From contig DASYHQ010000041.1 of the NCBI GenBank assembly GCA_035998445.1, positions 1-64,000 on the forward strand: a DNA stretch of 64,000 nt. The letters are read 5' to 3'. A program made the translations under genes and the position numbers. This document shows, one piece after another, positions 20,359 to 28,230 of this stretch (within the stretch, counting starts at the first letter, position 1; the number at the start of each line of letters is the position of its first letter). The DNA is from Tepidisphaeraceae bacterium (GTDB lineage: Bacteria > Planctomycetota > Phycisphaerae > Tepidisphaerales > Tepidisphaeraceae). Under the pieces are notes generated by a model. It ran no database searches. It worked only from the letters and a program-made list of their open reading frames with translations, and was not told where the DNA came from.

Positions 20359-20808
20359 TCACTCGGCGTCGTCGGCCTTGCTGCACTTGGGGCAGGAGCC
20401 GTGGAGCGTGACTTCGGGGTAGGTGATGCGGTAGTCGGATTCCACCTTCATCGACTGGACGAAGTTGGTCGGGATCTGGGCCGCGTCGAGGCATTCGACC
20501 TCGCCGCAGTCGTCGCAGACGAAGTGGGGGTGGCTGTGGTTGGCCGCGTGCTGGCGGGTCGCGGCGTCGCCGATCGCGTAGCGCCACGAGCGATCCTCGC
20601 CGCGCACGCGGTGGATGATCTTCTTGTCGACAAACGTGTTCAGCGTGCGGTAGACCGTCACGCGGTCGATGTGGCTCGACAGCTTGCCAATGATCTCGGC
20701 GGCGTCCAGCGGATGCTTCCCACCCGCCAACACGTCCAGCACGCCCAGTCGGACCGGGGTTCGGCGCAAGTCGTGGGCCTTCAGAATGACTTCGGCAGGG
20801 CTGGGCAT
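20359..20808 (-). CDS. Fur-family metalloregulator (Zur-like candidate)
   Basis: A 149-residue protein. The winged-helix domain has recognition helix DRVTVYRTLNTFVD (48-61). The dimerisation domain has HSHPHFVCDDCGEVECL (residues 91-107) and HGSCPKC (136-142), giving the structural zinc pairs C98/C101 and C139/C142. The ATG at 20808 is chosen because the open frame upstream is repeat DNA. Sequence alone does not separate Fur, Zur and PerR. Placement next to a His-rich ABC transporter suggests Zur (inference). It is convergent with that cluster. Confidence 0.9.
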   Translation of the reverse strand: MPSPAEVILKAHDLRRTPVRLGVLDVLAGGKHPLDAAEIIGKLSSHIDRVTVYRTLNTFVDKKIIHRVRGEDRSWRYAIGDAATRQHAANHSHPHFVCDDCGEVECLDAAQIPTNFVQSMKVESDYRITYPEVTLHGSCPKCSKADDAE

Positions 20809-21104
20809 GTCCCCATATCGTAGTAGCGCAGGCCGTGCGAGGAAAGCGGCGGGGGAAAGTGGGAAGTGGAAAGCGAATGCTGGCCAGGCACGCTCGCCGG
20901 CCAAATAGACTTGTCGTCCTGCCGGGGCGCTTACGAAGTAAGACGACGTCGCTCCGGTCCCTCTCCCGGTACGCCGGGAGAGGTTAGGTGAGGGTGATTT
21001 CGAACGGCGAAGTGTCCACGAATGGGCACGAATCAACACGAATGGGAAGAGGCAAGATTGGGCATTTACCTACTTGACGCACTCCTGAGCAAGCGATTGT
21101 CTCT

Positions 21105-21401
21105 CCGGTCCCCTCTCCCGGCATTCCGGGGGAGGGTTAGGCACCGTCTGACGTATCGCGCGTGGGCGAGAAGCTTGTCATCCCGACCCTAGAGGTAGCG
21201 ACCCGACCCATCTCCCCACGGGCGTGAATCGCTCGTCATTCGAGATCCCTCAGGTCGCTACCGCTCCCATCGGGATGACAACCACGCAGATGGGCACTCA
21301 CTTTGATTCGTCAGACAGTGCCTAGGGTGGGGCATAGCGTGGACGCGTCTAAACCGACCCCCTCTCTAGCCCTCCCCCGCGAGTACACGGGAGAGGGGAC
21401 C
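21105..21401. repeat. Inner PR2 element split by PR1
   Basis: The left arm CGGTCCCCTCTCCCGGCATT with GGGGGAGGGTTAGGCAC pairs with the right arm GTGCCTAGG near 21316 and CCCTCCCCCGCGAGTACACG near 21370. CGTCTGACG and CGTCAGACAG form a further complementary pair just inside. The PR1 copy at 21176-21281 lies in its middle. Confidence 0.78.
21176..21281. repeat. PR1 dispersed palindrome, copy 2
   Basis: TGTCATCCCGACCCTAGAGG pairs with CGCTCCCATCGGGATGACA; inner GAGATCCCTCAGGTCGCTAC is identical in other copies. The left arm is more diverged than the right. Confidence 0.88.
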
Positions 21402-21524
21402 AGAGCAGTGAATCAAGTATGTTGTCGCCCCAGATTGCTTCGCTCTTATTCGTGTTCCTTCGTGCCCATTCGTGGGCACTCCGCCGTTCGAAGTCACCCT
21501 CACCTAATGCGCTGGCAAAAGCCA

Positions 21525-21628
21525 TGTCATCCCGATGGGGGCCTTGGCGACCCGAGGGATCTCGAACCACGGACGGCTCTCAGCCTTGGGAGATCCCTCA
21601 GGTCGCTACCGCTCCCTTCAGGATGACA
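21525..21628. repeat. PR1 dispersed palindrome, copy 3
   Basis: TGTCATCCCGATGGGGGCCT pairs with CCGCTCCCTTCAGGATGACA. The following bases (21664-21713: ACAACCACGCAGATGAGCAC to CGTCAGACAG) repeat 21280-21322 in direct orientation. Confidence 0.88.
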
Positions 21629-21724
21629 TTGGGTTCTTTTCCGCTAGCCTTTAGGCTCCCATCGGGGTGACAACCACGCAGATGAGCACTCGCGTTGATC
21701 CGTCAGACAGGGCCGCGCCTGCAA

Positions 21725-27349: not shown

Positions 27350-27392
27350 GAGAACTCCTCTGCCGCTTATCATGCGGCTGCAGTTGTGACCC

Positions 27393-27426
27393 GCGGCCCA
27401 TCGGTGTTAGCGCACCGGTGGGCCGC
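27393..27426. other. Leader hairpin before a PEP-CTERM gene
   Basis: GCGGCCCATCGGTG and CACCGGTGGGCCGC form a near-perfect 14-base stem with a six-base loop, about 45 bases upstream of the GTG at 27349 in its leader. CATATGCAGCTGCATATG (27462-27479) is another perfect palindrome further upstream and could be a regulator site (inference). Confidence 0.55.
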
Positions 27427-27492
27427 ACTGTTGAACATTCGATGCGAGACAAGCTAATTACATATGCAGCTGCATATGCAATTAGCGGAGCG

Positions 27493-27529
27493 ATGAAAAA
27501 GCCCGTCAGCTGCGAGATGACGGGCCTCC
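27493..27529 (-). terminator. Rho-independent terminator
   Basis: On the minus strand GGCCCGTCA, a short loop and TGACGGGC are followed by TTTTTC. It lies just downstream of the stop of the gene at 27547-28230. Confidence 0.85.
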
Positions 27530-27546
27530 CACCGCTTAGAGAACCT

Positions 27547-28230
27547 TTACACCGACGCGCGGCGCCGGCGCAACGCCATCAGGCCACCGAGCGCCAGCAG
27601 CCCGGCGGTCGCGGGCTCGGGGACCGCGGCGATCGTCGCGTCGACCGCGGCTTCGTGGTTGAACTCCGAGTCGCCGTAGTTCAGGACGATCCAGAACGGC
27701 AGCGAGTCGTCGACGCCGCTTTGCGTGGTCGAGAGGCCCAGTTCGATGCGGTACACCCCTATGTCAGGCGTGGCCGAGCCCGGCGCTTCCAGGCTGAACG
27801 TGAAGTGTTCGTGCCAGCTGCCGGCGCCGTTGGTGTTCACGGTCAGCGTGTTGCCACCGCCGGCCGTGTTGATGGCGTCGGGCAGCACGGACACGTTACC
27901 GTTGTAGATCTGCAAGCCCTCAGCGACCGAGCCGAGCGAACCGGGGCTAACGAAGGTGGAGGTCGCCGAGTCCCAGGCATCCAGGCCGCTCAGCAGGGTG
28001 AGCGTCACCGGGGTGTTGGGGGCGAACGTGCCATCTTCGGAGTCGAAGCCGGGGCTGCTGGTCGATGCCGTTACGGTGCTGAGCTCGCCCTCGAAGACGC
28101 GGGCGCCGTGCGTGACGATGGCGTTGTCCTCGATTTCCAGTTCAATGTCGCCGCCATGAACGTGTTGGGCATAAGCCGCTGAGCTTGAAAGGCCCATTGC
28201 GATGATGGAAGAAGCGATGAAGCGTTGCAT
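27547..28230 (-). CDS. PEP-CTERM protein (VPEP type)
   Basis: A 227-residue exported protein with a signal peptide (RFIASSIIAMGLSSSAAYAQ), a beta-rich body with HVHGGDIELEIEDN at the mature N-terminus and WHEHFTFSLEAPGSA near residue 140, and a C-terminal VPEPATAGLLALGGLMALRR tail. It resembles small planctomycete all3515-like or similar PEP-CTERM proteins, but I cannot assign a function. It lies downstream of the prepilin-like gene on the same strand and has its own terminator. Confidence 0.85.
   Translation of the reverse strand: MQRFIASSIIAMGLSSSAAYAQHVHGGDIELEIEDNAIVTHGARVFEGELSTVTASTSSPGFDSEDGTFAPNTPVTLTLLSGLDAWDSATSTFVSPGSLGSVAEGLQIYNGNVSVLPDAINTAGGGNTLTVNTNGAGSWHEHFTFSLEAPGSATPDIGVYRIELGLSTTQSGVDDSLPFWIVLNYGDSEFNHEAAVDATIAAVPEPATAGLLALGGLMALRRRRASV

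Follow-up and report, generated by a model that had tools for sequence, protein, structure and literature searches.

The window analyzed here, i.e., the whole 64,000-nt stretch of DNA, corresponds to bases 1-64000 of contig C41 of a 5.84-Mb metagenome-type genome (64 contigs) of Phycisphaerae type. Within it lies a block of nested palindromes. One neighbor is a minus-strand gene of the Fur family; the other is a Gfo/Idh oxidoreductase gene, whose 3′ end faces the block and which is followed by the gene for tyrosyl-tRNA synthetase. The nearest relatives of a flanking gene are encoded in Phycisphaerae-type MAGs. In the fur-family gene, the longest frame (20359-21039) crosses a PR2 hairpin (PSPNLSRRTGRGTGAT), and automatic annotation may therefore lengthen the protein wrongly.

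Architecture of the nested block

The segment 20953-21507 folds into one concentric hairpin of -185 kcal/mol (DNA parameters). Nested arms in the order PR2, PR7, second PR2, an inner pair, and PR1 had been proposed in the initial annotation, and all of them are present at or a few bases away from the places given there; the longest exceed what is found in shuffled sequence, the best 30-nt inverted window having 28/30 matches versus at most 24 in any of 60 Markov shuffles. The outer inverted arms (20984-21043 and 21448-21507; 60 nt, 92% complementary) are part of PR2 plus PR7, the inner PR2 arms pair at 21103-21120 with 21388-21405 and at 21127-21140 with 21366-21379, and the ends of the first MITE-A element occupy 21138-21157 and 21305-21324. 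A second PR1 and a direct repeat of about 45 bases had also been reported, and both exist, the repeat actually being 60 nt long with 90% identity (21263-21322 and 21655-21714). At the right outer PR2, placed at 21481, the stem is present but the terminal hairpin is missing. Two components had been overlooked, namely an arm pair bracketing the inner PR2 (21061-21103 and about 21407-21429), which belongs to element Y, and a piece of a further element, X. All features are listed in Table 1.

Table 1. Components of the nested block, in window coordinates
Feature	Position	Strand	Comparison
Outer composite PR2(PR7), left half: REP-like hairpin, stem of PR2, left arm of PR7, left target duplication at end	20953..21060	+	~90% identity over 90 bp to L036, L037, L038, others
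Left 8-bp target duplication CAAGATTG, PR7 hairpin tip	21053..21060	+	same 8 bases intact in empty paralogue L036
Element Y with internal PR2 (369 bp counting MITE-A)	21061..21429	+	ends GGCATTTACCTACTTGACGCA..TCAAGTATGTTGTCGCC shared with other Y copies
Inner PR2 carried by Y, split by MITE-A	21104..21406	+	unsplit Y-PR2 paralogues L207, L209, L221
Left TA duplication of MITE-A #1	21138..21139	+	
MITE-A #1 (CGTCTGACG element), ends GGCACCGTCTGACG..CGTCAGACAGTGCC	21140..21322	+	38 matching ends in genome
PR1 palindrome, centre of MITE-A #1	21176..21280	+	
Right TA duplication of MITE-A #1	21323..21324	+	
Right 8-bp target duplication CCAGATTG	21430..21437	+	7/8 versus left
Outer composite, right half: right arm of PR7, stem of PR2; no terminal hairpin of PR2	21430..21507	+	
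MITE-A #2, left end missing	21508..21716	+	direct repeats D1, D3 with MITE-A #1; right end matched
PR1 #2 within MITE-A #2	21525..21628	+	
Element X right end (reverse complement of AAGGCTAGCGGACAAAACC) and TA	21629..21653	+	joined to remainder of PR1 arm, 21654-21672

Composite elements and their insertion sites

PR2 alone is an element of approximately 125 bp composed of two inverted REP-like hairpins, a size and structure within those of REPINs (100-130 bp). With PR7 at its center, it occurs in more than 12 places in the genome with identical junctions, and PR2(PR7) is therefore a composite that moves or has spread as a unit rather than the product of a separate insertion at this locus. Seven Y1_Tnp matches exceed the cut-off in the genome; three are flanked by REP families other than PR2, namely C, HGRD, and F, with a Y1 transposase gene for each, and no RAYT with PR2 or PR7 as its immediate flanks was detected among these matches. 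The RAYT-type gene at L263 (C64, around 27844-28008) is flanked by C-family REPs and fused in frame to the end of an apparent thiamine-phosphate synthase gene, that at L264 (C58, around 2109-2273) has inverted REPs of family CATGGGCGAGACGCCCATG on either side and lies in frame inside a helicase-like ORF of ~927 aa, and that at L265 (C56, around 27353-27592) sits between tandem inverted REPs of family GGGTGCCACGGTACGG. A PR2 stem pair is located near the L264 gene without bracketing it.

Joined together, the sequences flanking Y in the window form a single 178-nt hairpin of -83 kcal/mol with AAGATT at its tip, and the PR7 tip before entry of Y would have read ..GCAAGATTGC... The paralogue L036 reads GACGCAAGATTGCTTAGC where the window has CAAGATTG / CCAGATTG around the insert, with CAAGATTG uninterrupted at the PR7 tip. 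The target duplications agree at 8/8 positions in five further Y copies (L205, L207, L281, and two in G016, a genome of another genus) and at 7/8 in the window copy, L209, and an element of G004. A first reading with a 6-bp duplication was dropped in favor of the 8-bp reading, which suits all copies better. In G004 (L288), Y-type ends lie 2,668 bp apart in a full-length element whose transposase matches DDE_Tnp_IS1595 (PF12762, E 2.5e-37) and Zn_ribbon_IS1595 and which also encodes a PIN-domain protein. On the strength of the 8-bp duplication and of ends common with this transposase-bearing element, Y is assigned to the IS1595 family as a predicted miniature member. An IS1595 transposase was not detected in the searched part of this genome (the 1.26-Mb sample and other loci). 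Bare copies of Y without PR2 (110 bp at L281 in this genome, 120 bp in G016) show that Y(PR2) is a composite as well. IS4-type (PF01609), IS630-type (PF13358), and Y1 loci were rejected as partners of Y, MITE-A, or X, their ends not being shared. As for copy number, contigs C17, C22, and C64 start inside Y elements, breaking ~140 bp from the element end, so that more Y copies must exist than the assembly displays.

MITEs of the Tc1/mariner-IS630 type have TA on both sides and inverted ends. MITE-A is alike in its TA flanks, inverted ends, and length: its end pattern has 38 matches in the genome versus 0 for a reversed control pattern, and every full copy examined is ~183 bp long, with TA on either side and PR1 in the center. 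Since the PR1 junctions are fixed across copies, PR1 in MITE-A is again a composite and not a separate insertion here. The TA duplication typical of such MITEs is found for MITE-A and X, with TA on both sides in the window, L096, and L097 and empty TA sites in PR2 and PR1. However, no transposase with MITE-A ends was found, and none of the eight DDE_3 (TA-type) transposase matches in the genome has MITE-A or X ends nearby, so that MITE-A and X are not filed as Tc1/mariner-IS630 members. A 60-bp pair of MITE-A-like ends lacking PR1 (L267, C32 near 239804) is perhaps a PR1-less form.

Joining the flanks of MITE-A #1 restores PR2 as it is seen unsplit in the Y paralogues, and the empty site GGGAGGGTTAGGGTGGGG is uninterrupted in the other arm of L203, the nearest twin of the window copy. 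The inner PR2 is entered at its left TA in the window and at its right TA in L203, so the two MITE-A insertions were independent. PR2 TA is the target in approximately 8 of 24 MITE-A copies and PR1 TA in 2, PR2 and PR1 sites together making up 5.5% of intergenic TA as estimated with a crude coding mask in this single metagenome-type genome (P about 2e-7; like all binomial values given here, it treats insertions as independent, is overstated if composites moved as one, and concerns a target pattern picked after the sites had been seen). X follows a similar rule, with about 8 of 16 copies in PR1 TA (P about 7e-12, subject to the same reading), the eight or so being from the 1.26-Mb sample. As X itself holds PR1, a recursion of PR1 in X in PR1 does occur, and X with its PR1 has been inserted in the TA of another PR1 at C61:37765, C61:54725, C18:636863, and C41:232407. 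Flank symmetry around PR1, considered as a mark of insertion into palindromes, was overall no higher than in mismatched pairs and was discarded.

Proposed order of insertion and possible role of hairpin loops

Very probably, the block grew by successive insertions into a stack of mobile palindromes, none of them autonomous. The bottom layer would be the REPIN-like composite PR2(PR7), whose PR7 hairpin tip would have been entered by the IS1595-type Y with its own PR2 aboard, duplicating 8 bp; MITE-A(PR1) would then have entered a TA in an arm of the inner PR2, and a second MITE-A a TA of the outer PR2, the relative order of these two steps being tentative. The entries of Y and of MITE-A #1 are supported because paralogues in the same genome have the empty sites. 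The later damage to MITE-A #2 is probably due to PR1 copies recombining once X was in the PR1 of this element, and the transposases presumably acted in trans. The earlier proposal that every layer arose by nested insertion thus holds for Y (7/8 of the duplicated bases matching) and MITE-A (TA on both sides), both with paralogous empty sites, but not for PR7 in PR2 and PR1 in MITE-A, which are composites with fixed junctions. The nesting would come about because each element supplies the favored target of another, either an AT-rich loop of 6 nt with C-G closing it or a TA within a G+C-rich arm.

The joint travel of some layers, i.e., PR2(PR7), Y(PR2), MITE-A(PR1), and X(PR1), might suggest that the whole block spread as a ready-made unit and that the arm order reflects an old element. 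This reading is largely refuted and very improbable, considering that no second copy of the full block occurs elsewhere in the genome and that the use of different TA sites here and in L203 reveals separate insertions. A search of relatives with the whole block returned PR2-type and PR7-type matches only, with no MITE-A or PR1 among the matches listed (few candidates per genome were scored). At the oxidoreductase loci examined in other genera, the fur neighbor was kept by none within the ~1.5-kb flanks scanned, and neither an empty nor an intermediate state was seen there. It is just as improbable that the concentric palindrome was generated without transposition, by inverted duplication, template switching at hairpins, or assembly error. 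The inverted rather than direct flanks of the L203 copy (C12:17527-17915; CATTCTCG / CGAGAATG), which make its host a long perfect palindrome, and the apparently recombined junction between MITE-A #2 and X would fit such processes; however, they do not leave direct duplications of 8 bp and of TA for which corresponding empty sites exist, and these are marks of transposition.

A different question is whether extruded cruciforms or single-stranded hairpin (REP) loops are the physical target of the transposases, so that palindromes gather palindromes by structure. If so, concentric hairpins would grow in the genome as a rule. Loop insertion, as suggested in the initial annotation, is partly supported: Y lies in the PR7 tip here and in REP loops elsewhere, whereas MITE-A and X go into TA sites of the PR2 and PR1 arms. 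In this genome, about 9 of the 15 Y flanks are hairpin loops of four families with differing stems (C, C2, D, and PR7; family C also flanks a RAYT gene), and in the sample all three C/C2 hairpins split by a recognizable element had Y in the loop. In 4/7 two-sided Y copies, the stem has 4 bp or more with G-T pairs counted (P 0.002 after C-AT-rich6-G matching), the composition-matched stem excess at Y targets being modest (P 0.002-0.004). On the other hand, REP hairpins account for 64% of the intergenic GC-A-N4-T-GC sites of the sample (P 0.4); since most sites of the dyad consensus are already such hairpins, sequence preference alone yields the same result, and because the consensus itself is a hairpin, it accounts for the Y data about as well as a cruciform. 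In addition, the targets of L207, L282, and L287, as well as those of all three copies in G016 and G004 (two other genera), have no hairpin. Targeting by structure is therefore a possible but rather doubtful explanation.

Relation to known systems

Catalogues usually present nested palindromes of bacteria as mosaics that lack a history, whereas here the surviving insertion marks allow the stack to be ordered. Both IS insertion in REPs and REP dimers inside palindromes have already been published, and the block is a deeper, resolved variant of these; no description of its nesting depth, of an IS1595-type element in this role, or of mutual targeting was found in the literature searched, which covered few subscription papers. 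A single genome offers numerous examples (REP loops with Y, PR1 with X, and PR2 with MITE-A) and is suited to testing hairpin structure against sequence as a guide of insertion, as well as the origin and spread of composite palindromes.

PR2 resembles the REP/REPIN systems with RAYT transposases in having two inverted REP-like hairpins in about 125 bp, and differs in that no RAYT with either PR2 or PR7 immediately beside it was detected (PMC3116915, PMC2817692). Y shares with the IS1595-family element ISApl4 ends starting with G's and AT-rich 8-bp duplications, which have been reported for that element, and DDE_Tnp_IS1595 in a full-length relative, but the window copy of Y lacks a transposase and has a PR2 palindrome inside it (PMC12561309). 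ISRm22, ISPsy8, ISPpu9/10, and IS1397 insert at a fixed point in REPs, ISRm22 with 6-bp repeats at the axis of palindromy and ISPsy8 at the symmetry axis of the hairpin (PMC1525189). Fixed-point insertion in REPs is common to these elements and the block; however, they are autonomous members of the IS3, IS4, and IS110 families and form one layer, whereas Y is a non-autonomous IS1595-type element, itself both palindrome and target. REP dimers within longer palindromes are known as GTAG-15 of A. variabilis, CGTC-1 of H. neapolitanus, and GTAG-23 of T. roseum (PMC3733652). They likewise present a palindrome within a palindrome at a fixed junction, but comprise two layers, and an empty target was not found for GTAG-15 and CGTC-1; the block, in contrast, shows several layers, along with target duplications and empty sites.
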